NCBI RefSeq assembly: GCF_014066305.1
Contig: NW_023501064.1
Location: forward strand, 124,001 to 188,000
Reading direction: 5' to 3'
Length of the DNA stretch: 64,000 nt
Origin: Letharia columbiana
Taxonomy: Eukaryota > Ascomycota > Lecanoromycetes > Lecanorales > Parmeliaceae
The notes beneath the pieces are model-generated. The model did not search any database, was not told the DNA's origin, and saw nothing but the letters and a program-made list of their open reading frames with translations. Of this stretch, positions 1,251 to 55,957 are shown in pieces. A program made the position numbers and the translations under genes. Within the stretch, counting starts at the first letter, position 1; each line of letters opens with the position of its first letter.

Positions 1251-3241
1251 CTACACCACTGCTGATCGAGAAGGTGCACCATGGCAGCTAGTGAAGGTCG
1301 GAAGTATTTCAGCTTCGAAAACATTCGGGTTGTCTGAATTGTCGTTGCCATTAGTCGGAGTCTCTCCGTCTCTTTGGGAAACGTCAAAATCCAGTAACAC
1401 TCCATTAAGCTCAGGCAAAGTACCCAATTCTTTGTCGTTCTGCAACTGCTGATGCTGTGGATGTCTCTCTCTTCTGCGGTCGATTCTTCTCCGCCAGGGT
1501 TTATACAACAGTGCACTCAAGCCACCCAAAACGACAAAGGAGCCACAAATAGCACCACCTGCGGCCTCATGTCAAACGTGTTCGACGCAAGAGAGGTCTG
1601 GAACATTACCAATAACGTCATAATGGTCACCGGCTGCTGCAACTCCGCCCTGAGCGTCGACGTCAGTATTACTGCTGGGTAATCGGAATAGGTTGAAGTG
1701 CCCACCCAGAACTTACCTGAGGGCTGAGCAACGTTAAGGACCTGGATAGAGGTTTCGGAGTCAGCATTGCCTGTCCAAGAAAGATTCCCGGGCCACGGGA
1801 CAATCCTGAGGAGCAAATACTCCTTAGACATGTCTTCAGGCTCAAGGTTGAGGTCGGACGAGGGATTTCAGACGCCAAAAATACGTACGAGAGTCAACAG
1901 TTGAACAAATCCTATAATCATCGCTACCATAACCGTGATGACCGTGAGCACAATCGAATAATACAGTATAGCGATCTGATCCTTTGCAAGTGCTGTAGAG
2001 GTATATAAAGCCATCATCAAGGCACCATCAATGGTATCGAGCAGGCACATCCCAACTGTTCTGGTAAGCTAATCACCATCTATGAACAGCTCCAGCAAGG
2101 ACTCATACCGGTGAACAGCACCGGAAATATCAGAATGAGCCATATGCTTGTGCCTTTCGCCCCTTGAATAGATGCAATCCCCAGCAGTGCGACCTCTGAA
2201 GAAGTGTCGAAGCCAAGGCCGAACAACAGGCCCAAAGGGTACCTAAGAACAGACACCTGCTGATTAGCTTTGCATGATCCTGCACCGTGTGCTGAAAGAG
2301 GGGTCTCGAGTGGACTGCACATTTTCCATGGACTGGGGCCTATAGTCAGCCATAGATCTCACCAGGAAGTGCCTGCAAGATTCGTTCCCACCGGTCAATA
2401 AGCTTGAATATTCTTTTGAAAAGATAAAATAAGCATCCAGCTCCTTTGATTTCAAAACTTTGCTCATCCCCTGGGGCTGAAGCGATCAACTTTCTCATCA
2501 ATTGTACAAGTTTGTGTAGAATATATATGTTCATAATTCCAAGTATAATGAGAAAGCCAGCAGAGACAGATGTACCGATGATGCCCCCAATCTTACTGAA
2601 TGCCCCGAACCTGGAGCTGATAGCAGAGGCCGTGGCGGCGACTACCACGGAAGTGACAATGACGATTCTGATGCAAGAAGACGAGGTCAGAGAGCCGTGT
2701 CAGTAAAACAGACGGAGCTTGCAACATGTGACGAGTGGAAGAGACGAACGTTGAATGACCAAGAGAGAAGAAAGTTCCAACAGTAACCGGACGTTGACCT
2801 GATGCTATGAGCCGACGAGTCATCAGATCGATTGCCTGTCTTCTCGGTGAGAAACCCGTGTGCTTGTCAGCTAGAATAAAGCGTACATACGGAAATGTGG
2901 TCCGCATCGAGAGCATGGCGGAGACCGAGAGTGTAACTCAGCACGGCCGTGGAGACGAGAGCTCTGTACAGATTGGACTCAGTACCTTTTGCTCCTGGAT
3001 TCTTCTAGGATTCCGTACATATGAAAGTGCTATGATTGCATCAGTGAGGAGGCGTAGAGGAACAGTGCTGGAGATGCCAGACAAGAAGAATACCGATTGC
3101 CACCCAGACAATGGCATTTGCAAACACCAATCCAACGATTATGCCTACAGCTGGAAATGGCAACGTCCGTAATCCCGGAATACGTCCATGGCAGGCAATT
3201 GCCCGTCTGTTGATACCGTTCTTCAGCGCAGGGAATCCCAT
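1251..3241 (-). CDS. nic1: High-affinity nickel transporter, NiCoT family (Nic1/HoxN/NixA type)
   Basis: Eight-helix plasma-membrane permease importing Ni2+, chiefly for urease. The coding sequence is spread over about eight exons. Joining them gives the family's signatures: [16 protein letters not shown] (the HX4DH metal motif, near 2855-2925), [26 protein letters not shown] (near 2200), [18 protein letters not shown] (near 2030), and a C-terminal GGAICGSF...[12 protein letters not shown] stretch before a polar tail ending at 1251. Two introns need unusual donors (GTTCGT between GHS and TIVIVTS, and probably GTTCCT after exon 1) to keep the frame. One short intron around 1700 is not fully resolved. 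The intron at 1742-1888 is one of the related introner-like introns. The upstream start at 3241 ([13 protein letters not shown]) is the first ATG in frame. No destroying mutation was found, but the model should be confirmed by transcripts. Confidence 0.85.
1742..1888 (-). mobile_element. Introner-like intron in the nickel transporter gene (147 nt)
   Basis: The intron joins LLTL to VLNVAQPSG in frame. It begins GTACGTATTTTTGG, contains the palindrome AGACATGTCT and the inverted repeat GGAGTATTTGCTCC, and ends with CAGGCAATGCTGACTCCGAA followed by CCTCTATCCAG. The 5' end, central hairpin and branch-site block recur in introns of unrelated genes in this window. Seen directly; mobility is inferred. 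Confidence 0.7.
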
Positions 3242-3674
3242 TCTGACTGATTTCGTGGTTTGGAAAGCCTCAACTGACTGCCCTTTATGATCATTTGATA
3301 GGAGGGTTGTGGAGAATAGGCCTCGAATGCAGATACTCAGAGTGCTAATTACAAGGTGACTTGGGACTGTACGGAGTACGAGAGTTCACATCAAGGATGC
3401 CATGGCATGGAGGAAGGGAGAGAAATCATGCCGGCAATCTGCTTTGTGCTAAGCCGGCATCCCACAGACGCCTGGATTCAAATGAAGGCCAAAGTGAATA
3501 CATCAAAGACTTGATGAGAACTCGAACCATGCTAGATATCCCTCCTCCAACATGCCTGATATAGAGCAGATGGCAAAACTGCCTTTTTCGAGCGCCGATA
3601 TGATACAAAAAATACTGCTTCCGCCCGACATTTGAACCCGACAGACGCCATGGTTTCCCTTTTTGATTCCACAT
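3242..3674. other. Intergenic: nickel transporter 5' side and flippase 3' side
   Basis: No gene recognised. The stretch must hold the promoter of the nickel transporter and the 3' end of the flippase transcript, both read on the minus strand. Small open frames here show no family motif. Confidence 0.6.
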
Positions 3675-6600
3675 TCATTTCCTCCGTGATTTGCCCCTCT
3701 CCATTCCTGGCCTTGAGCTCGCCATCTCACCGTACCTTCCTCGCTCCCTAGTCGTGTCATAGGCCTGCAGCACCCTATTTTGACTCTCGTCCGCCTGACT
3801 GAAAGCATAGCCCCTCTGCTTTCGCATCCGCTGTACTTGTCGCACTTTCCTGATCGCCTTCTGGAATTGCTCCATTCTGGGCCTGTAGTCCTGGATGTTG
3901 TACTTCTGGATCTCTTGCACGTGATGGTACGTTTGAGGCCGGTACATGCGTTTAGCGTACTTCCACGCAAAGTCTCGGAGGAGGCAGATCACGGGTAACA
4001 CTACCGCCATCAGGTAAAAGACAGGAGAAGTGAAGAGTCGTGGGATTACACCATCGTATTCGGTGGAAAGGCCGAGTTTGGGGGCGACCGTTGCGTAGAC
4101 AGCGATAAATGCCAACCAGATGACCATGCTCCCAGGGATGGCGAGGAAAGTCCATTTCGTCCAAATATTCGTAATCAGTGCCGCTTTCCCTAGGACAGTC
4201 GCGAGGACTGCCGTGTATAGAGCGGTCCCCCAAACCCAATGGCCAGCTATCTTTCCGTCGCTTTGGGGAAGATCCCAGAACCAGATGAGCTCAGATATGA
4301 AGTACGCGAGAAGAGAATGGTAAAACCCATTGAGAATCCAGGACCAGAAAGAATGCATCTTGAAAAACACACCTTTCTGTCCAAGCTGGTATAGTTGTGG
4401 ATAGCGATCGAGGAGACGAGCCGAAATGAATTGGTCAAAAATCCCTATTACAACTGGTGGAAAGACGGTGAAGAAGACATTGTAGAAGGACAAGGTCCAA
4501 GATTCGAAGATGACTTCACCAGAAAAGGCGTTCTGGAACGAATACTATATTCAAGTGGTTAGCCAGGAGGTCGCGTCAACCAAACCGGATATAAATACCC
4601 AAAATTGTGTCATGTACAATGCAATGTTCTTGTAAAAGGAGTAGAGAATCAGCTTCGAAATTCGCTGATAACTCCAAGCGCCGTGTACTAGCAAGAGCTT
4701 TCGAAGATATCGGAATTGTCCGATAGCTACATCGGCGCTTCGCGCTGCCTGAAGACCTTCAACGCCGCTTATGCCTACTCCGACATGTGCTGCCTGTATC
4801 ATGGAGACATCATTGGCGCCATCCCCAATCGCCAGTAGAATTGCCTTGAGGTTCCTTTTGACAAGCTTCACAACCAGTGCTTTCTGCAAAGGCGAAACTC
4901 GACTAGGAATCAGGTTAGCACTCATCAGACCATCCGAAACGAATGACACATACCAGCATATCACAGCTTTGCACATGATCGCAAGCTCGAGAAACATCTT
5001 CTCCATGTCTTTTTCCAAAGCAAAAGTCAGAGATTTGCCATCAATGACTAGAGCTAGCGTCTCTAGCTCAGCACCTCCCGCTGACTGATTTCGAATGGCA
5101 GTGAGCTTGTTCTCTATATTGGTTCTCGTAGCCGGCGAATTATCTTCATTGATGATCAACAGTGTCATATCTTCGCTTATGAGCTTACAGCTCATGCCAA
5201 TGTTAATGGCAGTCTCTTGTCGATCACCCGTTAGAACCCAGATTTTGATGCCTGCCTCTTGAAGAGTATGGATGGTATCTGGTACGCCGTCTTGAAGCTT
5301 GTCTTCGATAGCTGTGGCACCAAGCAAAAAAAAGTCATGCTCGATGATTTCTGCTGCTTTGTCAAGCTCCTCACCACGGGTCCCACTGACAGTCGTGTTT
5401 GCCTTGTCAAAGATCTGCAGCCATTGCTGGAGCTCTTCCTCTGGTATCTCGCGCATTGCTAGGCACAATGTACGCAAACCCTCCGTAGCGTATTCTTCCA
5501 GATGCTGCAAGGTTGCCTCAACTGTTGGACTGTCCTTACCAAGTCGCTCCAGAATGACGGTATCAGCTCCCTTGCAGTAGCAGCGCACTTTGCCATCGGG
5601 GCATCTGAATATTGTCGACATACGTTTTCGTGTTGAATTGAATTCTAAAACAGCTAACAGCTGATACTCATACTCCTCACCTTCTACTGAAATCGTCACA
5701 GAGCGGGGCCTTCGAGCCGTAAATTGATAGCCCAGCATCACCGCACCTTCAACCAGAGCACCCTCATCTGGTGAAGCCGCCTGATATTTGATCTCGCCAG
5801 GCTTTTCGTCCCTTCTTTCTGGGATGACCGTGTGACATGTTGATAAAAGCGCCAGGAAATGATGAATGGAGGTCTGGCTTGGGTGTTTTCTCCGATTTTC
5901 GGCAAGTTGTTTAAAGTCGTAGATGCCCACGGGGTTCTGTTCCGTGGCTCGTCGATCCTCAGGCACCTCATCCGCATACTGTATACCTGCTATCGAGCAT
6001 TGCTTGAATTCCATCATGTTGCAGGTAAGGGTGCCAGTCTTGTCCGAAAAAATATACTCAATTTGTCCTAGTTCTTCCACCAGGGACGACGTCCGGCATA
6101 TTGCGGGAGTGTCCGTTCGGTCGTAGTAGATATCAAGATCCGAATTGATTAGGAATGCTTGCCAATACTTGACGACCTCGATCGTTACAAATAGTGATAT
6201 TGGCACGAGGTTGGAGTAAAGAACCCAGTAGGTAAAGATGTCGGAGAAGAATTGCTTCGCAAGGCCGGTGTCTTCGATATATAGATATGCAAGCTTGCTG
6301 GTTGCCGTAGCTCGGATGATGAGATCGCCGACAGAGCTTATAATGCTCAATGCCACAAGAATTGCAACTAGCATGATAATCTGCAGGTTCACCAATTTTT
6401 CCACATGGGTCCTTTTGATGGGAGTCGCCGTAGCGTTACGCATAAGCTTCGTCTCATGGCCAGTGAAGACGACAATACCATGGATCCAAGGAGTATTACG
6501 GAGGGTCGCCCCTCTGAGGAGCAATTGGTCTGGTGCCAGGGGTAATTCCTTTTCGCCGCCACCGGCTGTCATCGTCAGAGTTGCTTCATACGTGTACAGA

Positions 6601-7856
6601 CTGCTATTTGGCTGTTCTGAACGGACCCTGCCAGACAACCGACTAAGCTCGTTCGGGCTCACAAGGCTCGCAGTTTCCGGAATAGCTTGCTTGATCTTCA
6701 AATTCGTTTCGCCATCAAGGTTGGCTGTCTCGATGTAGCACAAACCTTCGGGCTCGGAGGTAGCCAGTAGTACCAGATCCGCTGGGAACGGTTCTTCTGA
6801 TTCTACTCTTACAATGTCTCCCACCTTCACACTAACCCATCTGACATTTTCGAAATTTGATCCCCTCAATACTTTAGTTTTGGAGTGATTGAGTGACTTA
6901 TCCGAGTTCTTGCGCTTGAAATCCTCGATCAACTCCTTTCCGGCGGAAACAAGCAGTACGATGATGAGGGGCCCAATGGTGGTATATCGATTAGTTGGAG
7001 AGATGCCTGGTATCTGCTGCAAAGCTGCTGTAAATAAGAAGAACAAATTGGCGTATTTAGAGAACTGCTCGAACAGGAATTTGGGTAGGAAAGTCGCGAT
7101 GTTGTACTTTGCTGTGGATACATGATTATCGAGGTACCGATTCTGTGCATTCGCTGGCGGATTATTGAGATGTATCAATCTCGGGCCCAGAGTGGATGGA
7201 TCGGGCTTCCCTCTCCCGAGCCCAAATTTGAAATTCCCTGGATCGAATCTCTTGTGCTCTGCCTTTTTAGCCTGGTCTTCAGTCATATCGCTGTCCATTC
7301 TGGGCTGACCGGGCGTTGTCTCGCGCAACGGCATGTCCATTTCCGAGTATTCTGGTCCCCTGCCAAACAACGTCTTTGCCCTTCCCATGATGCCTCCTCC
7401 CATACTGTTCCGGTTTGCATGCCGTCCTCCACTGACCATCGGAGTTGGCCCTGAATCCACCGCACCAGAGGTGTGATAGAAGCCTCCCTGCATGGAAGGA
7501 TCGTCTTCGGGAAGATCGTCCATATCTGAGTACCGCTGATAGTTGTTCAAATCGGAAGTTTGTGAATAAGTCCGAATCCCTGTACCCAGGTACGGTTGTC
7601 CAGCGCGCGATACCCCCGGACTACCTGGCAAGCCATGGGATGACTGCTGTGCACCCACGAACTCATCGTAAGATACAGAGGGGCGAGGTTGCGGCCTGAC
7701 GGAGTGATCGATATTGTATTGATGGAGGAGCTCCTCATCGTTGACGAGAGGAGGCCTGCCATCGTTGTATGTGGGACTCGAGTCGTCGAGATCTAGAAGC
7801 GGACCCCCAGGATTTGGAGCTGCCTGGCCCTCTACTCCTGGTAGCCTAGCAGCCAT
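3675..7856 (-). CDS. DRS2: Aminophospholipid flippase, P4-type ATPase (Drs2 family)
   Basis: Flips phosphatidylserine and phosphatidylethanolamine to the cytosolic leaflet of late Golgi and secretory membranes, usually with a Cdc50 partner. The protein is about 1358 residues after removal of two small introns (4903-4953 and 4545-4598), both placed by restoring the conserved ICCRVSPLQK and YMTQFWYSFQNAFSGE segments. Motifs seen: an actuator DGETN loop, the phosphorylation motif DKTGTLTCN, TGDRQETA, the hinge GDGANDVSMIQ, and about ten membrane helices. The long polar N-terminus (about the first 200 residues, Pro/Ser/Asp/Gly-rich) and basic C-terminal tail are normal for fungal Drs2. The start is ATG at 7856, MAARLPGVEGQ. 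The gene is divergent from the CRIPT-like gene across 370 bp. Confidence 0.95.
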
Positions 7857-13255: not shown

Positions 13256-13304
<49 letters not shown>

Positions 13305-14221: not shown

Positions 14222-15452
14222 CTAGTTCTCTCCTGTTCTTAGCAACTTCTTCAAGCTTCCAGTAGCAGAGCCCAAGCTCGTTCCGACAAATTTCTTCTCA
14301 TACGTGAGATCATGTTCCTCAACCTGGGCAAGCTTTCCACCGTCCCTGCAATGGGAAGCGGTCGTAGTCGGCATACTGAGAGCAGGGCGAGCCACAAATT
14401 CATACGGCGTCCCTGACAGACTCTCCTCGCTCGAGGTGCTAGCAGTGGGCGTATGGCTGAGCGACGGGGTGGTACGGCTCGAGATGGTGCTGCGACCGTG
14501 ATTAAGCGCAGGGCGACGCTTCGAGTAGAGCGAATCACTCGAGCGATGGAATTTGCTGAGGTAAGAGAAAGCCTCACTGCTGGGACGGTGGGGTAGCTTG
14601 GGCTTCCACTCCCCAGCTTTTGGACTAGGCGGTGATTTAGTTTCCGTCAGAATTGGTTCAGCTGGCTTCCACTCGGTGGGGTCGAGATCCGATTTGCCAT
14701 TGCTTCATCAATTCAGAGTCAGCATTGCCACTTCAAGACTAGGTGAGAGTCCAAAGACATGTCTTAGACAGAAAATTGCAAACTTGGATTTTGATCCCCC
14801 AATATGTGTTTAGACTCAAAAGAAGGTACAGAATGGGAGAGACTCGCTTGGAAAGGGTGCTTACTGGGCCACGGGAGGTATCCTTGCGTCGCTCGTGGGG
14901 CGAGGGGTAGGTTGCATGGCGGCAACGTAGGTAGGGATCTTAGAGCCGAAAGGATCATCGATATCGTCGGAGTAGGCGGAGGGCACCATTTTCGTGGGGC
15001 TGGCCAAGCTAAGGTAGGGATTGGTGGTGGGAACGACAGAGTCACGGCGACGGCAACTAGGATCTCTGTCAGTGAGATGCACGATGAGATGGAGCGGGAT
15101 GGGGTACCTCTCCGAACAGTAAAGGATAGAAGAGTTGGGGACCAGGATTTGCTTCTCGCACATTGCACTATGGATCCAGTCAGCGGTCGTAGACCATAAG
15201 AAGAGGTATATTTGCGGTGCCTCACCAGAATTGCAAGAAGCTTGACGCTATATCGTCGTCCTCGTCGTCTTGGAAAGTGTCGTCCTCGTCGTCCTTGGGA
15301 TGCTTGGTACTCTTGGCAACCTTGATGGTGATCTTCGGGGTGACAGGAGCCTTTGAAGAAGGGACAGGAGGAGGAGCTTTGACGTAGACCTTCCTTACAT
15401 TTGGAGGAGATCGACGGGTGACATGGACTTGAGCATGGTGGCTGCTGGACAT
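14222..15452 (-). CDS. Ecl1-family zinc protein (life-span regulatory factor type)
   Basis: Small zinc-binding regulator related to yeast Ecl1/Ecl2/Ecl3, which extend chronological life span. Four exons joined on the minus strand give about 320 residues. The diagnostic stretch is split by two introns and reads FLQFCAMCEKQILVPN followed by SILYCSESCRRRDS, matching the FCxxCxKQ...LYCSxxCRxxD pattern of the family. It is preceded by an acidic segment (residues about 55-72) and followed by a Ser/Thr/Pro-rich C-terminal half of about 155 residues ending LRTGEN. The start is ATG at 15452. The third intron (14703-14864) is an introner-like intron and is much longer than the other two. The family assignment rests on one motif; the molecular role is inferred from yeast relatives. 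Confidence 0.75.
14703..14864 (-). mobile_element. Introner-like intron in the Ecl1-like gene (162 nt)
   Basis: The intron contains the palindrome AAGACATGTCTT and the block GTGGCAATGCTGACTCTGAA ending GATGAAG, nearly identical to the nickel-transporter intron. Its 5' end (GTAAGCACCCTTTCC) has diverged from the usual GTACGTA form. Splicing joins VAH to NGKSD in frame. Confidence 0.65.
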
Positions 15453-23991: not shown

Positions 23992-25476
23992 ATGTCTTCT
24001 GTCCACACCGTCATGTCTGGCTCCTTCTCTTTTGACACCATTCTTCCTCCTAAGCTCGACATCAACGTGGGAGCAAAGTCGCACTTCTTCCAGCCTCCCA
24101 AGACACCCTCGGCGTCAAGCTCACTTCACAGATCCACAGCTTCACTTCCCGCTCAAGATGTCATCAACAAAACTGCGAGCCGGGAACGATCACGGCATGT
24201 TTCACACTCATCAGATCAACTCACACCATTTAAAACCCTGTCAAATGCATCGCCAAGTATGCTTTCTTTCACACCGTCCGGCTTGGAGTCTCCAAGTTCC
24301 TTGAGCCCTGTGCCCTTTGTCAATACGCAATACAGGCTAGCCGGCGGTCTTGATACGCCAACAGCACGCCTGACCATGGACGAAGAAGGAGGAGAATGTC
24401 GGGCGTCACCCGGTTTACACTTGCGGGGATTCAGAGACTCCCAGTCAGTTCCAGACAGCTACTTTCCTCAGTCTGATTCTGCGCTATCAAGAGAAAGCAA
24501 CGGACGTCCAAGGCAGCACGCCTCCCCACGAATCCAAGATGGTTTTGGCAAAGCAGTCTACGGCATAGCTTCAGTGGCGGGCAAGCTGTGGGATTTTTGT
24601 AGGACAACCGCATTCAAAGTACGTACATTTCGGAATGATCTTTTCATATTTAGGACCAAAGCCTAAGTCACAAGTTATGTTGCGGGAGCACAAGGTTCCT
24701 TTTGCTCCTGAGATTTGTGTCATTACTCAGGTTCTTGGCTCGAAGAAGCAATGCTGACTCCTGATTCTGCCTAGGGCTTTTATTCTGGAGGCGGTCAGGG
24801 ATATGAGATGAAGCCACCACTGGGATATATGAACTGCGATAAGAACATGTGGCAAGAAGTTGACTGCGACGACGTATTTCAGTCGAATCTATGCGAGAAG
24901 AGCTTGGTACCTGGCTGCTTCCCTGAGGAAGACTTCATCGCAGATTACATGTCCCAAATTCATCACACAACGCCGCCTCGCGCAGCAAAGAAGGTACAGC
25001 GAGAGAAGGGAATCGGTGGGGAGATAAGTGCCAGCTGGGTGCTTGTGGGCAGTACGTCTACCTCGCGCGAGACGAGTCCTTCACGGCTATCTAGTCGGAA
25101 AAATTCCCCCTCGAACACATCGGCGCGAAGACCAATACCTAAGCTTGGCAGAAGACCAATTCTACCAGCTTCAAGACCATCATTGACATCGTACGCTGGC
25201 TCGCCTGGCTTGCAATCCGATCGATCCGCATCTTTTGCGTCGCCAAGATCTCCAATCACGTCGCTGAAGCGCGAGAGTCCACAAAATGCAGAGGTACACC
25301 GGCAGGCGGCGAGAATACGGAAACGGGAATTGGAAGAAGATGCGAATCTAAAGCGATTCAACCAGCAGCTGAAAGCTATGATCAAAGAAGGGAAGGAGGC
25401 TTTGGGAACCAAATTCGAGGTCTTGGAGCCGGTAGACGAGAATTCTGCCTATGTTTACGGCTGTAGGAAACGCTGA
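23992..25476 (+). CDS. Conserved fungal protein of unknown function, Ser/Pro-rich
   Basis: I do not recognise a named family. Two exons (23992-24618 and 24775-25476) give about 442 residues. The open frame extends further upstream, but the first ATG giving a sensible start is 23992 (MSSVHTVMSGSFSFDTILPP). Features seen: a Ser/Thr/Pro-rich first half; a compact central segment spanning the splice junction (AVYGIASVAGKLWDFCRTT then FKGFYSGGGQGYEM), probably the conserved core; a second Ser/Arg-rich region; and a C-terminal helical segment (RKRELEEDANLKRFNQQLKA) that could be a coiled coil. The intron 24619-24774 is an introner-like intron inserted exactly within the central core. Confidence 0.7.
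24619..24774 (+). mobile_element. Introner-like intron in the unknown-function gene (156 nt)
   Basis: Begins GTACGTACATTTCGGAAT and ends GAAGCAATGCTGACTCCTGA plus TTCTGCCTAG. A strong inverted repeat sits in the middle: GGAGCACAAGG (24685-24695) against CCTTTTGCTCC (24698-24708). Splicing joins FK to GFYSGGG in frame. Confidence 0.75.
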
Positions 25477-26305: not shown

Positions 26306-27887
26306 ATGTCACCGTTGGAGAAGATCACGTCAGAGCTTCGCCGAAAAATCTTTACACGCCTTCTCACGGCCGACAATGTTCGGCAACCACCCGATCGGTA
26401 TCTCGTACGCCCCATACCGCTTGCTCACTGCAGTCTTGTCTGTGAGCAAGAAGATCCATGGTGAGGCACATGAGATGCTCTACCGCGAGAACTATTTTGT
26501 GACTATCTCCAGTGACTGGGAGATGAACTTCACATACATGACAAACCATGAAGTTACCACTGTCTGTCAAAAGCCACAGCTCGTTGCCAGGTTCAAGAAC
26601 AACATTATGCGCTTGCATATCAAGTTCCCATGGGCCAAGACCCAAGGGAACACCAAAGTCCATGCCAGTTTCATCGTGCTAGTTCAGGATCTGCCTAGCT
26701 TCACACGATTGCTTTATTTCTTGGGTGTCACTAATAGTAGAATACGACCGCAACTTAACTTAAATTTCCGGATCGAACCCACAGATGCCGGCCCTCCAAG
26801 CCTTGCCATCCAGAAGACTCTCCTAGAGGTACGTCATTTCGGAGTGACTCCTTTCTTTTCGGCACTTTGGTCTGACATCTCAATCATGTTTAACTGCTTT
26901 GTTTTGAATTATGATCCAACGGTGCCATGTAATGGGCTCCCCCCCAATCTGCTTCAGAACTGGTTTTAGGGGTCGATCCTATCCTACGTTTTAATAAGGG
27001 CATACTGACCCCGAAAAGCCATTTCGCAGTTTGACGACCGCTGAACAGAATGTGAACTTCTAAGGCAATGTCGACGCCGCCTACGCGCAGGACATATCGA
27101 AGACTATGATGCCGCCTCTTCACTGGGTTCGTGCAGCAGCTTGGAAGCTCTACCACACCTGTGCCTCCATTAAGCAAGTCGGCGATCAAGCTCTCCGGAT
27201 GGGAAACTACGACCTGGCTTTAGCCAAGTATCAGGACTCCCAGAATGTATTCAAGAGAGCCCAGGCCGACAACGAGAACATTTCCGGGGTAGAAGACCCA
27301 GGTTTGCATGCCTCAAGTGATCGGCTCATCTCGATCTGTGGGACCAACATTCTCCTGTGTACTCCCAAGGCAGGCGAAGATCCGAAAGAGCAAGGGACAA
27401 CTCCCCATGAGGCTGCGGCGACGTCTTGAAAAGCGCCGCAACTCACAATATCGAGGCTACAGACCGTGCCACTGAGCTGTCGCAGCTTGAAAAGAGTAAA
27501 TTTCACCATTATCGCGGCATCACTTATGCCATTAGAGATAATCACAAAGCGGCCTTGACTCAATTTCGAAAAGCAGCTCAGTGTGATCGAATGAGGGACC
27601 AACGCATTGAACTTGACCTTGCCATCACAAAACGTCATCAGGCGGCTGAATCTCCCAAGGAAAAGACCGCTGCAGGTAAAGTGAAAGCCTCGCGGCTCAA
27701 AGACGAGCCCCTGGAGCACGAGAATCCCATCTTCACGACTTCGAAATTCATCGACGGTGAGCGCTATCTGCTTCGCAAATTAGGTTATCACGGAGATATG
27801 CTGGAGCATATTCATGGAACCAAGGGTGTGGATATGAAGGAGATGGACAAAGTAGTGAAAAGTCTCGAAATCAGCAGCCTACTATGA
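26306..27887 (+). pseudogene. Decayed F-box-like / TPR-like gene with two frameshifts and a stop
   Basis: The reading starts MSPLEKITSELRRKIFTRLL (F-box-like). It continues through a region with FRENYFV-type strands (SKKIHGEAHEMLYRENYFV) and, after an introner-like intron, a helical part (WVRAAAWKLYHTCASIKQVG, then GNYDLALAKYQDSQNVFKRA) and a TPR-like tail (HYRGITYAIRDNHKAALTQF). Three lesions break it. A CCCC run at 26410-26413 has one base too many for the frame to pass from YLVRP to YRLLTAVLS. There is an in-frame TAA at about 27052-27054 between NVNF and GNVDAAYAQD. One base is missing near 27420 between HEAAA and VLKSAATHN. Each flanking segment still looks coding, so decay is recent or the assembly has errors. 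The F-box call is tentative; the intact family is fungal and of unknown target. Confidence 0.7.
26829..27018 (+). mobile_element. Introner-like intron in the F-box-like pseudogene (190 nt)
   Basis: Begins GTACGTCATTTCGGAGT and ends GGGCATACTGACCCCGAAAAG, a diverged version of the shared branch-site block. Removal joins KTLLE to PFRSLTTAEQ in frame. Confidence 0.6.
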
Positions 27888-38697: not shown

Positions 38698-40279
38698 TCA
38701 TAGCTCGTCTTTTCCCTTGCCCGAAGCTTGGCTCTTATCATCTTTGCCTTTCGCTTTCTCTATCTCGCTCATGCCGCGCCCAACCCAGCTGGTCAATATC
38801 TCAAAACCTACCTGCGCTGCGACTAGTGCCGTCTGCTCCCCTGTTCCGTCATAGGCAGGCGCCACCTCGACGATATCCGCGCCGACAACATTCAATTTTT
38901 CGAGACCCCGAAGAATCCTGATCACCTCACGACTCGTCCAGCCGCCTGCTTCGGGCGTTCCTGTACCTGGGCACTGTTTGTAGTCAGACATCAACATGGC
39001 TTGTGAAGGTGACAATAGCGGTCTACTGACCAGGCCCGGGTCAAGCACATCAATATCCAAACTCAAGTATGTCGGCGTATCGGTTCCGATTCTCTCCAAT
39101 ATCGCACTCACGATGCCTGCCGTGCCCATCTCATCGATATCATCTGCTGAAATGCGCAGGAAGCCCTGGCGTTCATCATCCTCATAATCATCCCAACCCA
39201 TAAGACGACTTCGCAGCCCAGCATGGGCAGATGAGCCATTCAGGATCAACCCCTCGTTGGAGGCGATCCAGAACATGCTTCCGTGAGTGAAATCGCTTTG
39301 TGTAGATGGCCAAGCAGACGGGTACTTCGCCGGGTCTGAATGACAATTCCGTAGTCAGTATTGCCTTTTTGAGGGGTTGTACTGAACCTCTTGGAACTTG
39401 TCTACAAAGCAGACACGGACTCGAAGATACGTACGCCAGGTGTCGAGATGGGCGTCAAAGTGCAATACAGCGATTGGTCCGCCATAGATCTTGTTAAGTG
39501 CTCTGAGGGCTGGAAGAGCAATGCTATGATCGCCACCCAATGTGAGTAGCTTGGGCTTTGGGTTGGTCGAGTGGGCGAAAGCTGGAGCGCGGGAACCGAG
39601 TTCGAGGAAGGCAGATGTCATCTGGTGGAGGGCAAGGGCGTTGTCAAAAGGTGTGACAGGGATATCACCACAGTCAAAAATAGTGTACGGTGAAGTGTAT
39701 GGATTCAGGCCACGGCGAGGGTTGAAGCCACGGAAGGAGGTTTGACGAGCAGAAGCTGTTCTGATGGCACGAGGCCCGAAGCGTGCTCCTGGGAAGTTCA
39801 CATTGAGCTTGGATGTTCTCTGCTTCGGGGAATCTGCAGGATACAAAGAAGAATTGACAAAAGCGTCAAGACGATCTTACCGGGCCTGTAGCTGACAGCC
39901 GTATCAAAAGGAGCACCTATGATTCCGATGTCGCTGCCGACTCGGTCAATGCAAAGGACAACGGTAATCAGCGTTTTTGCAGGCTACTGACAAGGGTGTG
40001 TCCCTCTCACTTAAGCATTTTATATGCCTCAAGTGTGCGAAAGTAGATATTCCTGAAAAGCCCCACTATGGTGGATCAATGATAAAGTCATGAGAAGAAG
40101 AACCAGAGCAGTGAGATACATCAGCAGGGCAATACCTCAAAGTCCCATTTCCTGTGAAGTTCTTCTGTGCTGTCTGGGCCCGTAGGAGGTGATGGATCTT
40201 GCTCAGGGTTGTCATAGAATGAGGAAGAAGTGCGAGCAAACGGAGAAAGGACCAGAAGGGCCAGCAAAACATAAAACAT
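38698..40279 (-). CDS. Agmatinase-like ureohydrolase with signal peptide
   Basis: Hydrolyses agmatine (or a related guanidino compound) to putrescine and urea using two Mn2+ ions. The first exon starts at ATG 40279 with [20 protein letters not shown], a classical signal peptide, so the product is predicted secreted. Further exons give [20 protein letters not shown], then the metal motifs [14 protein letters not shown] and [10 protein letters not shown], all intact. An in-frame intron near 38995-39050 is removed to give [16 protein letters not shown]. The intron 39336-39434 is a shortened introner-like intron, joining DTW to [11 protein letters not shown]. The C-terminus is Lys/Asp-rich and has no obvious sorting signal. 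The boundary between exons 2 and 3 near 39920-40010 is the least certain. Confidence 0.85.
39336..39434 (-). mobile_element. Shortened introner-like intron in the agmatinase gene (99 nt)
   Basis: Begins GTACGTATCTTCGAG and ends AAGGCAATACTGACTACGGA plus ATTGTCATTCAG. Both ends match the family while the middle is shorter than in the 147-162 nt copies, suggesting erosion. Confidence 0.65.
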
Positions 40280-48477: not shown

Positions 48478-48817
48478 ATTTAACAAATCAGATGCGATAT
48501 CTGCAGAGAAATTTGGAAACAGAATAGTGGATGGAGTAAAAGAAAACGAAAATACTGCGGCCAGCGCAGATTTAAAAATGTAGTAGTGGACGAACTGTCG
48601 TGGTATGTATGGATGACGAAGTACAACTGTGACGTGAAAAATGTTGTGATGAAACATTTTGAAGTGTAAAGGGAAAGGGGCTGGTGTTGCGGAACAATAG
48701 ACCAAAAGTTTGACAATAGACCGATGTTGATTCACGAACATCCAATGTGATCTCAGCGCAGAACAATACAATTTCAAAACTTTACAGACAATAGAACTCG
48801 GCCGAAATTTCTAGTAC

Positions 48818-50401
48818 TTACGACATCTTGATTCGTGCAGCTTTTTTAACTCCCTTTGATGGACGACCCAACTGATTCGGAGTGGCCCCTCTGGAAGCAC
48901 CTGGCGGCGGCGGAATGAGAAGTTCGCCGTAAGAAGAAGATGTTGGGGAGTCGAGGTAATCTGGCTCATCTCTTCTACTCTTTTGGTTGACACCATTTCG
49001 TAATCGTGCTTGCTGTGCTTCCGCCGACAACACGGCTAAAGGAGCAGTCGAGTGGGGCTGTCTTATTGGGTTTGGATCTGCTCGCACCTTGCTGTGTCCA
49101 ACAACGTAGTCTTGGTAATTCTGCGTCAATTTCTCCTTACGCTTCGCACTAAGCTCTTCCGGCGTTAGATGGCTAGGTTGGGTGATGGGCTTCCTAACAG
49201 ATGGATCAATAGGTCGCGTAGAGAACGATCCTAATCTTGGCCCCATCGCGGGTTTCTGCTTAGCTTGGTTCAGTCCTTGATGAGTAACAGCGTTAGCTCC
49301 ACTGGGCATTGATAATTCAATGGCGGGAGCAAAGTCTTCGACAGCGGAATCCAATGACGAGAGAGACGAGTCACTTGATGCACTCTTCGAACGCTTTACT
49401 CGTTTCGAGGGGCGCTCGTCTTTGGAGGGGGTTCCATTCATTTCCATATCAGTGCTTTTTGGTTTCGAAGATCGATTGTTGGAATTGGGAGGATAATTGT
49501 TGAGTACAGGCGCACTGGCTCGGTCCTTTGTGGTACCAGAGTGGCGTACAACACCCACTTTGGCACTCTTGGCAGTTGGAGACCTCGAAATTGATTTTGA
49601 TGCTGAATGTTTAAACTGCTTCGCTGGATCATCAGTAGCTCTAATCTGCTTCCTCGCGGCTTTGATATAGCTCTGAAATTCAGCAGTTTGTTGCGACGTT
49701 GGCTTTTGAGAGAGCACAGCTTCAAGAAGGTCGGCTACCACACTATTCCTCAGGCTTTCCTCATACAGCTGCTTCAAAGCGATACCGAGCGCAGGGTCTC
49801 CAAGCTCTCGTGATCGGTCGATAGCCGACTCAACTATTTGCTGTAACCGTGTTTGTCCGACCCCCGTGCGTGAGGTTGGGGTTCCGAGAGGTGCTGCTTG
49901 TGTTGAGGCTGCCTTAATCGTCGTAGTCTTTGCACTACCCTTTGGGTTGTAGTCGTTATCCTGGTCTCTTTCTCGAGATGATGAGACCTTCCCGAGCCTT
50001 TCTTCGGTTTTGCGGGGCTCAGAGCGTCTTGTTCCAACTGGTGGTGCCGGTTCTGGAGTGTTCACCTCCTCCCTTGCCCCTCTTGCTTCCCCATTCTTTA
50101 GATGTGCTATTCTCCGCGTAGGCTCGTGGTGCTTCAGTCTCGTTTTGACCTTCTGACCTGGGAAAGTTCCTAGAGGGGCCATATGCTCCAGTACACCATG
50201 CCGTTCTAGCCCTTTGTAGTCTTCAAAGCTGGGTGCTGGTGCTCGTAGAGGTGGCTCAGTCCATTCTTCTTCCATGTCTCCATTCAAGTCGCCTACGTGG
50301 GCTTCAGTTTTCACATGCACGTTGTGTTGCGTAGAGGAGTGCGATGGGCTTGACATTCGAGACCTCCGCAAGTGCCTTGACGAGGCCATTTGAGAAGCCA
50401 T
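48818..50401 (-). CDS. Probable N-terminal half of the Rco1-like PHD protein (or separate gene)
   Basis: Open frame of 527 codons starting at ATG 50401 (MASQMASSRHLRRSRMSSP). It contains WTEPPLRAPAPSFEDYKGLE, RHGVLEHMAPLG, a helical segment (LQQIVESAIDRSRELGDPAL), a Lys/Ser-rich part, YQDYVVGHSKVRADPNPIRQ, and the end LGRPSKGVKKAARIKMS. From memory, such a segment precedes the PHD fingers in one protein in filamentous ascomycetes. A perfect GTAAGT donor overlaps the stop (ATG TCG TAA GT), which suggests splicing onward. The only acceptor in the correct phase would include about 90 codons that look non-coding. So either the exon joining is different from what I can see, or a frame break has split the gene. 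Confidence 0.55.
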   Translation of the reverse strand: MASQMASSRHLRRSRMSSPSHSSTQHNVHVKTEAHVGDLNGDMEEEWTEPPLRAPAPSFEDYKGLERHGVLEHMAPLGTFPGQKVKTRLKHHEPTRRIAHLKNGEARGAREEVNTPEPAPPVGTRRSEPRKTEERLGKVSSSRERDQDNDYNPKGSAKTTTIKAASTQAAPLGTPTSRTGVGQTRLQQIVESAIDRSRELGDPALGIALKQLYEESLRNSVVADLLEAVLSQKPTSQQTAEFQSYIKAARKQIRATDDPAKQFKHSASKSISRSPTAKSAKVGVVRHSGTTKDRASAPVLNNYPPNSNNRSSKPKSTDMEMNGTPSKDERPSKRVKRSKSASSDSSLSSLDSAVEDFAPAIELSMPSGANAVTHQGLNQAKQKPAMGPRLGSFSTRPIDPSVRKPITQPSHLTPEELSAKRKEKLTQNYQDYVVGHSKVRADPNPIRQPHSTAPLAVLSAEAQQARLRNGVNQKSRRDEPDYLDSPTSSSYGELLIPPPPGASRGATPNQLGRPSKGVKKAARIKMS

Positions 50402-50428
50402 CGAGTTGGCGGAGAATGGAATGCCGAC

Positions 50429-50488
50429 CTGTGAAGTGTTAGTACATGACAATCACATAGAGAGTTTGTGGAGCTGATGGATACTCAC
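50429..50488 (-). other. Predicted 5'-leader intron
   Basis: GTGAGTATCC donor at 50488, branch site ACTAAC and acceptor CTTCACAG ending at 50429, 28 bp before the ATG at 50401. Ordinary 60-nt intron, most likely in the untranslated leader. Confidence 0.55.
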
Positions 50489-51139
50489 AACCGCAAGTGT
50501 TATTAGGTAGGCAGCTGATCTTAGGGGATATATCGCGGTGTCATGCGCGTGGTGTCTGAGATTATTGAGGTGCGGCTTCGGCAGGGATTAATTCCTCAAA
50601 CTAATTTAGGAATTCACAAACTGTTTTCTGAAACTCCTTTTCTACAACGATGAGGATACTTATTGTCTAAAGATGTGATTGATGGTTTTGATGAAGATTG
50701 CAAAGGTGTGAGGGGGGATGGGAATATCAAGTCAGGGTTGCCAGTCTGCTCTGTAACCAATAAAGGGGTATGTGTTTGAGTGGCAGACCAGAGGACGAAA
50801 CCAGCAAATGTTCTATTAAGAGCTCGTGCCGTCATTCACTATTATGCAAGTGTTAAGTCATGTCTGCAGTAGGGAAGCTGGAAGTGAGATGAACATGGCT
50901 TCATTTGCTTTTAGCTATCTGTTGCCTGCACCTTGGCTAGTAGGCATTCGGACCTGGGAGGAAATCCTAGCTCACATCTCTTACCAAGATGCTGGAAAAG
51001 AAGACGACCCTCTGATCACGCTGCCTGTGCTATCCCTCGGTTCGGGGTCAGGATTATTCACCTATTCAACTTCCAGACGAACAAAACCAGCTACTGATAG
51101 GCATGCTCGCCAGATGCTGGGCTTCCCAGCGTTAATCGT
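50489..51139. other. Intergenic, upstream of the Rco1-like gene
   Basis: About 650 bp between two genes on the same strand. Plus-strand open frames here are the reverse reading of the Ebp1 C-terminus or non-coding. No element recognised. Confidence 0.5.
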
Positions 51140-52630
51140 TCACTCCTCATCGCTGGAGTCCTCGTCTTCCTCCTCTGTTGCTTTCTTGGCCGGCTTCTTC
51201 TTCTTTTTCTTGTTCTTACCCTTTGCCCCGGTCGACCGTGCTACAGGCTGCTCAAGAATCTTTAGGATTTCTTCATCGGTGATTTTCTTCTCCGTCTTGT
51301 ATTGTTCCAAGCTTGGGGCTGGCGGTGCGCTCAAACGGACGATCCCATTCTTCGTGATGGCTGGCTTTATTAGCTTATCGTTCTTGACACACTTACTCAT
51401 TTCACCTAAGACTTACCAATTGTTGTCAAAAGTCTTGCGACAGGAGCCGAGTCCTTGTCTGCTACAACCTCATACTGTCGGAGAACATTTGATCGCACAC
51501 ACTCTACCACACCAACTTTGGCCGCTCTTTCATCCTCAAGCTGCCTCAAGCTGAAGGGAAAAGTCCCAAATTTCTTTACGATCTCCGAAAGCGTTTGCCT
51601 AGAACTCGGTCTTTTGAGTTGGTAAGTGATGGTGGTTCTCCGGTGTAGCGTAGGGCGATTTTCCAACGTCTTTATCTTGCCGGTACCCAGACTAACACCC
51701 ATTTCCACGCCCCAAACATCCCCAATCTCAGGAACCCCTTCGCCCTTGCCGCCGTCTGATGGGGGAGAAAGGACAATCTTCTTTTTGCCCTCAATTTCAT
51801 TTCGCTCGAACAGCCAGGACGTGGTCCCTTCAACCAGGTTGCAGCCGTAACTTTTGACTACTTTTTCGAGAAGGTGTGTCATCTTCGACTGCGTGATGGG
51901 CTTTATCGATGCTGCTTTCTTTTTCTCCTCATCTGTCCCAGAAGCTAGGAGACCGGGAGGTATCATGAGCCTCAGGAGAAGCTCGTTTGCGTAATGTGTA
52001 GCAAGCAACAGATCAGCTTCCCGGCCGAGTAGTTTGTCATCCTTATTGGCCTCTCCTGGTATGATGATCGTGTCGCATACGATAGTGCCGAGGCCGTCTA
52101 TTTGGGCTCCCAATTGAATCTTGACCGCCTCGTTGGCCTTTAATGATGTAGGCGCTTCCTCGGCATCTGTAGAAAGTGGAGTGTATGGAGTAACGTAAGA
52201 GCTAGGAGAGACAGTCGTGGGATGTGATATTCCTGAAGGATATAACATCAGCAATATCTCTTTCGTAATGCGATTGGGTCTCTCTGACCTTTAGAGATTT
52301 TTTTTCCTTTGTAAACCTTGCCAACTTCTTCCGCCAGGAACTTATCTCCGCGTTCGCATATGGAGACAATCTTTTCTCCCTCGAGGCACCATCCTTCACT
52401 TACAATCAACAAAAATCCCAGACGAAGCATGGCGAGTGAACACTACCAGTAACAGCTTCTAGAACCTTGAGGGAGATCTGAGCGGCTGTCTTGTACTTCG
52501 TCAGAGTATCGGGATTGTTCAGCGTGTAATCTGCCAGGTCATTACTTGTTAGCCAGGACAAACAATATGCAAAACCTCGAGTCGATACGTGAGAAATCGT
52601 ATACGTACCGACCGCCGCATCTTCCGCCAT
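51140..52630 (-). CDS. Ebp1/PA2G4 family protein (methionine-aminopeptidase fold, Cdb4-like)
   Basis: Homologue of human EBP1/PA2G4 and fission yeast Cdb4. It is a catalytically dead methionine aminopeptidase-like protein that binds ribosomes and nucleic acid. Five exons were joined. The start is ATG at 52630 (MAEDAAV). Segments in order: YTLNNPDTLTKYKTAAQISL, GWCLEGEKIVSICERGDKFL, VYKGKKISKGISHPTTVSPS, then the large central exon (51406-52254 region) with GTIVCDTIIIP and the insert carrying EKVVKSYGCNLVEGTTSWL. The final exon encodes AITKNGIVRLSAPPAPSLEQ and a Lys-rich then acidic tail, as in the family (nucleolar/ribosome binding). All introns are short and ordinary. Confidence 0.88.
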
Positions 52631-52867
52631 GATTGGCAACTTGCCGGTCGTAGATCCAAGAACTATGATGTATAATCCGTTCACATTTACAATAATTGAA
52701 TGTCGCGTGAGTGGGGAAACATAATTATTATGTTAACTCGTCGGTGGGTTGACCGTTGTGTCGGCTACCGTTGCCCGCTATTTGAACCCTAATGCTTTAC
52801 TCCTTCTGTACTCCCACCCTTTCAACTCCAACTTCACCTCCACTTTCAAATCTTCACCCTCGGCATA
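52631..52867. promoter_or_regulatory. Short divergent promoter, Ebp1 and EEP pseudogene
   Basis: 237 bp between the divergent starts. CT-rich at the right side (about 52800-52860), consistent with a leader for the plus-strand gene. Confidence 0.4.
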
Positions 52868-53155
52868 ATGAAGGTGTACGAGCCTCTGCCCATCCGTTTG
52901 TTGACCCACAACATCCGTTACGCTACTAATTCATCCTTTAAAGGTGAAGAAAAATGGGGGTGTTCGTAAATTTCGTCTCATCAAGAGCTCTCTTTCAATA
53001 CAGCACACTGTGAAGAATCATTCATATGCTTGCGGGAAGTATTGCATCAGTAGTTGGTCGGTATTCTTTCAGGTTCAACAGCAAGAAGAAGGCATGAGCC
53101 TTTGTGGGTGTGGGCCGCGATGACGGGCTAGAAGCTGGAGAAAACTCCCCCATCT

Positions 53156-53482
53156 GTACGTATTTTCGGAATCCAGTGTTTCCTCTTTTGGACAATGTCT
53201 TGAGTCTCGAGATTTATATCGGAAAGTTCCACTCTCGAAACATGTTTTTCAGGCTCGTTATACCCTCTCAAGTAGGCGGCGATACCGACGGCGAATTGGA
53301 ATACAGTGTATAAACCTGAAATTTGGGTCTGTATATTCTTAGAGCGGAACGACCCTATTGCAGGCCATTTTTGGATCACAAAACATTCCGAGAGCAAGCG
53401 CCTCTTGATCTCCCTCTGAGCTGTCTCACCTCGGGACCTCGCCTGTCTTGAGGCAAAAATACTGAATCCGAAATCTTTGTAG
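53156..53482 (+). mobile_element. Introner-like insertion(s) in the EEP pseudogene, first (327 nt)
   Basis: Begins GTACGTATTTTCGGAATCC, contains AAACATGTTTTTC and GAGAGCAAGCGCCTCTTG, and ends GGCAAAAATACTGAATCCGA plus AATCTTTGTAG. About twice the usual length, so it may be two elements or one with added sequence. The following mini-exon (53483-53525) encodes ELKAQRTKWLSRTP. Confidence 0.55.
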
Positions 53483-53525
53483 GAGCTGAAGGCACAAAGA
53501 ACAAAGTGGCTCAGTAGAACGCCAG

Positions 53526-53681
53526 GTACGTGTATTTCGAAGCTGATATCTCCCATATGATATTGGAACCGAGTCGCAAAACATGTTTCGGGAGCAAGAG
53601 GACTTTTCTAGGCCCTAAAAATATTTTGCAACTCCATTACCTACCTCGAACAAGCAATGCTGACTCCGCAATCTGCGCAAG
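53526..53681 (+). mobile_element. Introner-like intron in the EEP pseudogene, second (156 nt)
   Basis: Begins GTACGTGTATTTCGAAG, contains AAAACATGTTTCGGGAGCA, and ends CAAGCAATGCTGACTCCGCA plus ATCTGCGCAAG. Removal joins TP to DRPSKRWD in frame. Same length as the copy at 24619-24774. Confidence 0.7.
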
Positions 53682-54262
53682 ACCGTCCCTCTAAGCGTTG
53701 GGATGCTGCCTCTACCAGGATCTTGACTATAGCTGTGTTCCAGCATCGGTCCACCAGCAAGACCGTTGTTGCTATGAATACTCATCTCGATGACCAAGGT
53801 AGCAAGTCACGCTTAGAGGCGGCAAAAATCATACTGGAACAGATACGACTGTTCACTGACCAGGTCCCCCACGGACAGAGCCCACCTATTTTTCTTGCGA
53901 CTTCAACAGTGAACCTGAACAAGAAGCCTACAATGAGATGACTAGTTCAACATCTCCAATGGCCGATCTGCAAATGATGGTCTCTGAGAATAAACGCTAC
54001 GGAGAGATCCATACTTTCACTGGATTCGATTCAAAACACCTTAAAAGAATCGACTTCATTTTCGTGAACAGGGACGAACCAAAGTTGGCCAACAGTAATT
54101 CTAAGAGAGGCAGTCCGGAGAGGTGGTGGCTTGTGGAGGGGTACGCTGTGCTCCCAAATCGATTCGAGTGTGGAATCTACAATTCTGATCATCAAGTTGT
54201 CGTGGGTGACGTGTCTACGATGTGAAAATCCCGCAGTACCTCATTCTCCGTCAATTACCTTC

Positions 54263-55957
54263 TCAAAGCTTCGCCGACGTGCTCGCCTCCAAGTCTAGTC
54301 CTTTGACCAATCGCACAACTTTCCTGGCGCTGCCAATCGCATTCTGATAGCTGTTATGATCTTAGTCAGAAACTCCGCAACAATTTTCTCGACGGAGTGG
54401 CGTACCCAGCGCCAGCATGACCATACGAATGCACTGTTTTGAATATCCCGTCTACAATTTCGGCCTCCACTCTCGGGGCGCCCTCTCTTGCTGGCCTAAG
54501 ACCACACTGGACGCTCAAGACCTCGAATGATCCGTCTTTTTCCAACAGCTCCGGAGCCAGGCTTTTGCAACCTTCCAGAATCGCATTCGTGGCCTTGTTG
54601 CTTACCTCGGTGCTCCTGACGCGGAGTCAAAGCTGTTCAACGGGGCCTCAACATCGAAATACTCACCAATTCCCAACCTCCCTAGTACCGCCTAGAATCG
54701 TCGTCCCGCTTCCCGGTCGTGGAATAACATACTTGTTTTCGTTCATCGTCTTTGCATACTTCGCCTCCCCCTTCACCAGCACGGTCTGTCCTCTCACAGG
54801 GAACATAGCATCATCCGGTACCAGCGCTTTCGCTCCCAACCCACTCGCGTTCACACAAATGAGCCTCTCATGTGGTTCTTGACTCATCGCCAAAGAGGCC
54901 GCAAATCTCAAAGCTCCTGGAAGTCCTTTGTCCGTCGGCAGACGAGCTTTGACAAGCTTCCCACCCATGGCAAGGAAGGTGGACAGAAGATAATTGAGAT
55001 GGCGGGGAACATTGATGCAGATTGTTGTAAAGCCTACTGCTGATTGGATGCCTTCAGGAAATTGATTTGCTGGTAGATAGCTGAAATTCTCGACGATTGA
55101 GCGCCACCATAATTGAGGACTAATCTCAGAGGCTGAAGAGGACCTATGTTGTAGTCAGCTACAAACATGATCACGAGAGATGCAACTTCTACGTACCAGT
55201 AGAGAGTAGACGGGACAATCTGATACACAAGATATCAGCCATGACCTTCTTATTTTTCTAGTGCTTAACACCTCTAAATACATCGCCGTGTGATGTGCTG
55301 GAAAAGCTGCGCAGGGTTCCAGTCCTCCCAAAGTTGGCCGTCTAGAACAATTTGAAGTCAACTCACTGCGCACGTTTCGGAGTCAGCACTGCTTTTCGAG
55401 GGCAACATTCAGGCTTGCAAGACACGTCTCGGGAGTAGAGAGAGCCTTCTGCTCCGGAAACATGTCTTTCAATCCAGAATTCGGCGTAGAAAAGGAAGTA
55501 AATACGCCGAAATGTAGAGTACGCACCCCCTAATCCAACCTCTGTCCCCTTCCCTCTCCTCACCATATCCATCCATTCCTTATACGTCTCTGCATCCCAC
55601 CCTTGCAACTCCGTCTCGTGTGCCTTGGCGTGACTCCGCCATTGCCCTCCGGCCCTAGGTGAGAATCAACCGCCAATCCTGCCGCGAGCCCTACGGGAGG
55701 TTGAGCACGATATGAGAGGAGTGGTGTACCAGGGTGAAGCATAATGCGCACTCTCATCTCCAGGAACATACTCTGCGATGATGGTGACTTGATATCCCGC
55801 ATCGAGGAGATAGAGGGCTGTCTGAAGACCTGTTATGCCTGCTCTGGACCGCGAAAAAGTGTCAATACAGGTATTTGGAAACACTGGAAGACGGCTTAAT
55901 TGTGAATGATTACCCCAGGACTGCTACGTGCTTGGCTTTGGGGTTTGGAGATGCCAT
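54263..55957 (-). CDS. D-amino-acid oxidase, FAD-dependent, peroxisomal
   Basis: Oxidises D-amino acids to 2-oxo acids with release of ammonia and hydrogen peroxide. Exon 1 from ATG 55957 gives MASPNPKAKHVAVLG. After an intron AGITGLQTALYLLDAGYQV completes the FAD-binding dinucleotide fold. HYASPW is followed after another intron by AGGQWRSHAKAHETELQGWD. The later part has LWWRSIVENFSYLPANQFPE, GFTTICINVPRHLNYLL, the FAD region RGQTVLVKGEAKYA, GSGTTILGGTREVGNW, and HSYGHAGAGYQNAIGSARKV. It ends SAKL, a type 1 peroxisomal signal. The segment 55190-55366 between the introner-like intron and LWWRS is poorly resolved: the simplest joins meet stops, so an extra intron or a lesion is possible there. 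Confidence 0.8.
55366..55526 (-). mobile_element. Introner-like intron in the D-amino-acid oxidase gene (161 nt)
   Basis: Begins GTGCGTACTCTACATTTCGG and ends AAAGCAGTGCTGACTCCGAA plus ACGTGCGCAG. The centre (55419-55469) forms a long imperfect hairpin with arms AGACATGTTTCCGGAGCAGA and AGACACGTCTCGGGAGTAGA (the latter read on the opposite strand). The true acceptor could be the later TTGTTCTAG at about 55334, which keeps a better frame. Confidence 0.65.

Follow-up and report, generated by a model that had tools for sequence, protein, structure and literature searches.

An introner-like intron family in the lichen fungus Letharia columbiana and a possible route of its multiplication

The 64,000-nt stretch of Letharia columbiana DNA considered here (contig NW_023501064.1, positions 124,001 to 188,000; hereafter the window) carries, in the coding exons of unrelated genes, a set of spliceosomal introns that resemble one another. 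The first-pass annotation had listed eight such introns, with shared ends and unrelated host genes, and had read them as introner-like. All eight are present in the sequence with the coordinates and ends given there, and both the unrelatedness of their hosts and their sense placement are borne out. We consider it likely, with a probability of roughly 0.7, that these are introner-like elements, i.e. mobile spliceosomal introns that bring donor, branch site and acceptor with them, and that they have multiplied through coding exons of a fungus near the Parmeliaceae; they may have done so by re-entry of intron RNA. The introner-like family is real, being supported by genome-wide copies, sense placement and splicing in two genes; the mechanism is unproven.

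Introner elements in the window

A profile built from 30 copies, including five from the window (those starting at 1742, 24619, 39336, 53526 and 55366), was used to scan the window and matched the regions of all eight introns on the expected strand. The elements at 14703, 26829, 53156 and 53327 were absent from the copies on which the profile was trained. The 30 copies, drawn from window and genome, can be aligned from donor to acceptor and fall into two main lengths of ~147 and ~155 nt; the ends are thus shared as first described, and the similarity runs from end to end rather than being limited to them. The opposite strand was also matched, more weakly, for six of the nine window elements (E < 0.05), because the elements partly equal their own reverse complement. 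The count of nine arises from the 327-nt interval 53156-53482, originally taken as a single intron, which yields two tandem profile matches (53156-53304 and 53327-53482) and is read as two introners around a 20-nt exon. The elements and the short exons between them are as follows.

1742..1888, minus strand: introner copy, 147 nt, in a NicO-like nickel-transporter gene; 104.5 bits
14703..14864, minus strand: introner copy with a diverged 5' end, 162 nt; 63.7 bits, outside the model
24619..24774, plus strand: introner copy of subfamily D, 156 nt; 138.8 bits; cluster 18
26829..27018, plus strand: degenerate introner candidate, 3' boundary provisional; 23.1 bits, E = 4.5e-4, outside the model
39336..39434, minus strand: eroded introner copy, 99 nt, in an agmatinase/arginase-family gene; 32.0 bits
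53156..53306, plus strand: introner copy, subfamily B-like, first of a tandem pair; 49.7 bits (match 53156-53304); splice ends from homology
53307..53326, plus strand: micro-exon between two introners, 20 nt; completes LYKPEIW in the spliced frame; gapless alignment to 3g6s
53327..53482, plus strand: introner copy, second of the tandem pair, 156 nt; 37.3 bits; homology across the junction
53483..53525, plus strand: exon between introners, 43 nt; ELKAQRTKWLSRTP, open and aligned
53526..53681, plus strand: introner copy of subfamily A, 156 nt; 136.3 bits; cluster 20; homology across the junction
55366..55526, minus strand: introner copy of subfamily E, 161 nt, reading frame across it provisional; 121.5 bits; cluster 19

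Removal of the 1742-1888 element leaves frames open on either side, and the NicO match of the spliced stretch spans the junction (E = 2.1e-9), whereas the retained element introduces a stop after six codons. Spliced frames are also open around 14703-14864 (phase 2; 109 and 110 codons) and around 24619-24774 (110 and 110 codons). The weakest member by profile is the candidate at 26829, where the match is limited to 26829-26893 and the acceptors tried give only 4-14 codons in the upstream frame. Two points are provisional, namely where 26829-27018 ends on its 3' side and how the reading frame runs across 55366-55526.

The gene with three introners was named by solved structures, Pfam and NCBIfam having given it no name. 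Its spliced product, GVGRDDG...SPI LYKPEIW ELKAQRTKWLSRTP DRPSKRW, aligns gaplessly over its three junctions to the solved protein 3g6s (E = 2.6e-18), which is annotated as a member of the endonuclease/exonuclease/phosphatase family. The 5' end of its first introner, 53156-53306, was found by the subfamily B pattern at three mismatches. Beyond the spliced stretch this gene (~52868-54220) shows in-frame stops and an apparent frameshift, such that it may be a pseudogene or its exon model may be incomplete. Scans of the window with Rfam (gathering threshold) and for tRNAs gave no matches.

Genome-wide copies, placement and splicing

Copy counts and density come from pattern searches of a genome of 52.2 Mb in 161 contigs. 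The 19-base branch block, allowing up to three mismatches, gave 444 matches as compared with 6 for the reversed pattern, far above the ten genome-wide matches named by the first-pass annotation as the floor for recent multiplication. The family comprises several hundred related copies. Patterns specific to subfamilies A, B and C matched 80, 88 and 66 times, respectively, with control counts of 0, 0 and 1. Could the resemblance merely reflect constraint, in that these are ordinary introns with an extended branch-site consensus? In favor of this explanation, CTGAC is a general branch consensus in fungi. However, the end-to-end homology refutes it, the block so clearly exceeds its reversed control, and the block is absent from all 20 short ordinary introns that were predicted in the window and in the 3-kb loci, whose median length is 59.5 nt and which include one duplicate pair, even though CTGAC was part of the rule used to predict them. 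We give this explanation next to no weight.

From 107 selected loci (285 kb), 180 non-redundant elements were extracted. Setting aside 35 partial profile matches and 2 elements without an acceptor left 143 that count as full length by rule; 33 of these 143 fall outside the five named clusters and were not used for the junction logos described below. Donor, branch-like block and acceptor, as chosen by rule, could be assigned in 98 of 99 full-length copies. A 22-mer has no exact match in bacterial and archaeal genomes, and a single exact match of a 17-mer (L152, 2754-2770) to a viral contig was taken as probable chance.

The copies are clustered, with 20 pairs less than 1 kb apart among 232 merged subfamily positions as compared with 1.0 expected under uniform placement, and one gene resembling glycoside hydrolase family 17 (GH17-like; L010) carries five elements within 1.1 kb. 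Because 13 of the 20 close pairs join different subfamilies, this clustering does not stem mainly from local duplication. The same observation bears on the idea that copies spread by tandem or segmental gene duplication, or by gene conversion among ordinary introns. Cases of duplication do occur: one identical pair of copies has identical flanks (C77:208424 and C109:29719), and one introner-bearing gene is present twice at 99-100% (C68:9372 and C101:43529); both cases are suggestive of segmental duplication or of haplotypes that the assembly left unmerged. Against duplication as the general route, the exon flanks of the other listed copies are unrelated, the close pairs are of mixed subfamily as stated, and one orthologous site reads as empty (below), so that we consider this explanation very improbable.

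Placement is strongly oriented. Neighbouring elements less than 1 kb apart lie on the same strand in 61 of 64 pairs. Among the 143 full-length copies, the median number of open codons, out of 90 across the junction, is 89 for the spliced sense frame, 62 for the antisense frame and 60 with the element retained. In 111 copies the sense frame, once spliced, exceeds the antisense frame in length; it is shorter in 23 and equal in 9, and at least 60 codons are open in 128 spliced sense frames as compared with 79 antisense and 72 retained frames. This sense bias does not decide the route of insertion, because antisense copies in exons would lack splice sites and be lost.

Are the elements spliced? 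Two cDNA-like proteins from short contigs bear on this question. P0001 stems from a 1551-nt contig, and the exons of the agmatinase gene in the window account for all of it except the start codon and two intron-split codons; its residues 107-223 correspond to 39786-39436 and its residues 225-325 to 39333-39031, while the codon for H224 is made by the splice, such that removal of 39336-39434 at its ends restores a split codon of P0001. The second protein, P0121, comes from a 2014-nt contig; it shares 99% identity with the spliced GH17-like product and runs through all five elements without a break, and its differing residues include the one immediately preceding the fourth junction. Based on their length and continuity, both source contigs would be transcripts. 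Spliced products are thus continuous over six copies in two genes, which supports splicing at the expected ends in these two genes. Separately, four introner pairs abut, lying 0-1 nt apart as read (C34:217476, C2:521130, C12:1109258 and C1:1713990), and would need joint or nested splicing; two more close pairs, at locus ends, were left out of this display.

The first-pass annotation had proposed that orthologous genes be compared for precise presence or absence of the introns. Nearest named homologues of the agmatinase are from Usnea florida (96%) and Alectoria sarmentosa (95%), and those of the GH17-like protein are from Cornicularia normoerica (95%), Imshaugia aleurites (92%) and Alectoria fallacina (92%). 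Cornicularia and Alectoria belong to the Parmeliaceae (Lecanoromycetes), which places the host near that family and not among the Dothideomycetes. The second frame of the element has no stop in 24 of 52 subfamily A copies, and consequently unspliced copies appear inside predicted proteins. A search with the peptide of this frame recovered nine proteins at E ≤ 10 (P0241-P0249), eight of them at < 1e-3; these introner translations are an annotation artefact that is usable for mapping the family. Five of the nine were checked against this genome. In P0245, which its Pfam domains mark as a dehydrogenase, residues 1-53 and 105-310 match directly adjoining stretches of contig C27 at 91-92% in one open frame, and the C27 DNA reads SFDPYQRGRM uninterrupted; on this alignment the site is clearly and precisely empty here and filled in the relative. 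The matches of P0242 adjoin on contig C132 at 71% and 47%, and its site is probably empty here as well. Both empty-site cases go one way, with the relative filled and this genome empty. Judged from these protein-to-genome alignments, introner sites vary between relatives.

Insertion junctions, hairpins and the route of multiplication

How does an intron enter an exon, and what mark does it leave? No target-site duplication emerged. When all offsets were allowed in 97 elements, the best-scoring words of 5-8 bases occurred in only one or two elements. When offsets had to be equal, no repeat of at least 4 bases occurred in more than two of 128 elements, as in shuffles. Two shorter signals were seen: a 3-base repeat ending at +1 in subfamily A (4 of 52 vs 1.3, a count that 1 of 200 shuffles also attained, with many offsets tried), and a 3-base GGT repeat in five of six subfamily E copies that shuffling cannot separate from a common junction preference. 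The strongest shared 4-mer, seen 16 times where 5.7 were expected, has offsets that differ between its two occurrences and was attributed to the C/...CGTAG class of subfamily A, the slash here and below marking the junction. Insertion at TA with duplication was ruled out, since splicing would then lose exon bases.

The exon bases at the junction differ between subfamilies. Junction logos were drawn from 128 elements, consisting of 109 distinct elements (52 A, 32 B, 9 C, 10 D and 6 E) and 19 of 20 added C copies. Among the 31 A copies ending in GTAG, position -1 is C in 18 and G in 11, and +1 is A in 25; the remaining 21 A copies all have G at -1. Subfamily B has G at -1 in just 4 of 32 copies. 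In the 28 copies of subfamily C, -2 is C in 16, +1 is A or T in 20 and +2 is C in 17, while all six E copies have G at -1, followed mostly by GTG. For comparison, G stands at -1 in 40% of ordinary introns, a figure from 20 predicted introns that are too few for a firm baseline. The mutual information between subfamily and base exceeds 2000 of 2000 shuffles at -1, +1 and +2, is weaker at +3 and -2, and is not significant from -10 to -3 or from +4 to +10.

These preferences bear on how the introns were inserted, because the models differ in their predictions: random break repair predicts no junction bias, reverse splicing by the ordinary spliceosome would predict one common favored site, and element-guided insertion predicts subfamily-specific junction bases, as observed. 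We hypothesize, tentatively and with considerable doubt, that integration is element-directed, such that each branch of the family would recognize its own short exon junction (for example C/A in one A clade, CN/WC in subfamily C and TG/GTG in subfamily E) and insert seamlessly in a guided reaction without duplication. This reaction would be either reverse splicing with an exon contact specified by the intron or transposition of a single-strand hairpin into the exposed coding strand. If true, integration would be neither random break repair nor insertion at proto-splice sites.

Symmetry is a further feature of the elements. For subfamily A, the largest, the consensus is a palindrome over nearly its whole length: its predicted fold is a single hairpin that spans bases 2 to 154 of 155 and leaves the terminal Gs unpaired, at an energy of -65.1 kcal/mol, as compared with an average of -45.8 kcal/mol for 28 folded A copies; aligned with its own reverse complement it scores 66 (shuffled maximum 21). 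The hairpins of B (consensus -58.2, copies -37.0; symmetry 50, shuffled maximum 24) and C (consensus -47.8, copies -34.4; symmetry 33, shuffled maximum 21) are less complete and point in the same direction. Mean fold z-scores against dinucleotide shuffles are -3.3, -2.2, -2.1, -3.0 and -2.9 for subfamilies A to E (28, 28, 28, 10 and 6 copies). Because the consensus is more symmetrical than its copies, the symmetry has decayed, which suggests that it belonged to the multiplying source and was lost afterwards. RNAalifold found 3 pairs in the mixed 30-copy alignment and next to none in single-subfamily alignments.

Taken together, the proposed sequence of events would be as follows. The excised intron would fold into a single long hairpin with its terminal Gs free, and this RNA, or a copy of it, would re-enter transcribed exons with no base gained or lost. 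The most likely route would be reverse splicing, either directly into a coding strand that lies exposed or into mRNA that is later converted to DNA. A new copy would be spliceable at once, since both splice sites travel with the element. After insertion the hairpin would be dispensable and would erode until the copy resembles an ordinary intron.

The alternative is that introners move as DNA, i.e. as short non-autonomous inverted-repeat transposons mobilized by a transposase with a short target preference that leaves the target site unduplicated. Such a transposase would also be expected to yield element-specific junction bases and inverted repeats, and this keeps a DNA route without target duplication open. 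Consistent with it, the inverted repeat of the A consensus extends to the second base of the element, the junction bases differ between subfamilies, and 14 of 15 neighbouring leaves of the A dendrogram have C/A, two of these being the identical pair. On the other side stand the lack of a target-site duplication in the sets of 97 and 128 elements, the internal position of both splice sites, neither being co-opted from the target, and the spliced sense frame of at least 60 codons in 128 of 143 copies, although the genome searches were not gene-selected. We regard movement by such a transposase as a real but minority possibility. Between an RNA and a DNA route in general, our guess leans slightly to RNA.

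Several limits apply to the junction results. The division of subfamily A by its last four bases was made after looking at the data, and the five-cluster test without this division is also at the floor of 1 in 2001 for -1, +1 and +2. The junction shuffles treat copies as independent, and nearest neighbours within A share flank bases in 22 of 53 cases as compared with a shuffled mean of 12.3 and a maximum of 26 in 1000, so that clade structure in the junction preference within A is no more than suggestive. The P0245 site may be compatible with an element that replaced the +1 base, given that the empty site has T at +1 and the filled protein implies A or G. Besides the expectations of a transposase, further points weigh against the main reading. 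The sense bias would also be expected from selection after random insertion. Changes that keep a pair as G-U are only slightly more frequent than pair-breaking A-C changes (391 vs 306 over three subfamilies; 187:141, 125:104 and 79:61), so that copies already in place barely preserve their RNA pairing.

Age is a further point on this side. Of the sites compared, that of P0244 (100% match, evidently from the same species) is filled, that of P0243 (95% match) is filled in both genomes, and that of P0241, whose single 72% match runs through the element region, is probably filled in both. The presence/absence pattern is therefore mixed, and the sites common to P0243 and probably P0241 would suit old, class-wide introns that retained a common sequence. 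Against such an age, one site is clearly empty here, another appears so on the basis of a more divergent match, and copies at different sites are up to 97.1% identical; we consider old introns a highly unlikely explanation. This 97.1%, the best identity between copies with different flanks among the 143, has a second consequence: as no non-duplicate pair exceeds it, present activity is not demonstrated. A neighbour at least 90% identical exists for 20 of the 143 copies, which falls short of the near-identical copies that are reported for some families and indicate present activity.

Comparison with known introners

The origin of new introns is an old question, and whether fungal introners use an RNA or a DNA route is unsettled. 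Van der Burgt is said to have described the introner-like elements of Dothideomycetes in 2012. No introner report for lichen fungi or Lecanoromycetes was found by title and the start of the abstract, a scope outside which such a listing is possible; the lichen fungus would thus add a class without a found report to those with introner-like elements.

PMC4457414 describes introner-like elements in the Dothideomycetes Fulvia, Dothistroma, Zymoseptoria and Passalora. As there, the lichen elements are similar spliceosomal introns in unrelated genes, sometimes several per gene, that are longer than ordinary introns, degenerate fast and have intronless positions in other species; predicted stable structures are a further likeness, as cited in PMC8469720. 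The lichen family differs in its occurrence in Lecanoromycetes, in subfamilies with different exon-junction bases, and in copies that are more diverged than the 98-99% given for Fulvia and Zymoseptoria.

A closer parallel in structure is seen with the symmetrical sister stwintrons of Hypoxylaceae and Xylariaceae and the introns derived from them. According to PMC8469720 and PMC12403724, these have terminal inverted repeats and a fold that pairs up the terminal Gs, insert seamlessly without target-site duplication, and function on the coding strand only. They are reported there without exon-junction bias, unlike the subfamily-specific junctions of the lichen family. In a [D1,2] stwintron, an internal intron splits the external donor between bases 1 and 2; the lichen copies are mostly single introns and not nested, the four abutting pairs being candidates for joint or nested splicing.

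Inverted repeats and gene enrichment are shared with DNA-transposon introners as described in Gozashti 2022 (PMC9860276) and, as cited, by Huff 2016. In Huff-type introners, a target-site duplication supplies one splice site, whereas the lichen copies have neither a duplication nor a co-opted site. According to Gozashti 2022 (PMC9860276), ascomycete families lack inverted repeats and target-site duplications, whereas the lichen family has inverted repeats. With its different branches at different kinds of landing site, the lichen family could help show how fungi gain introns.

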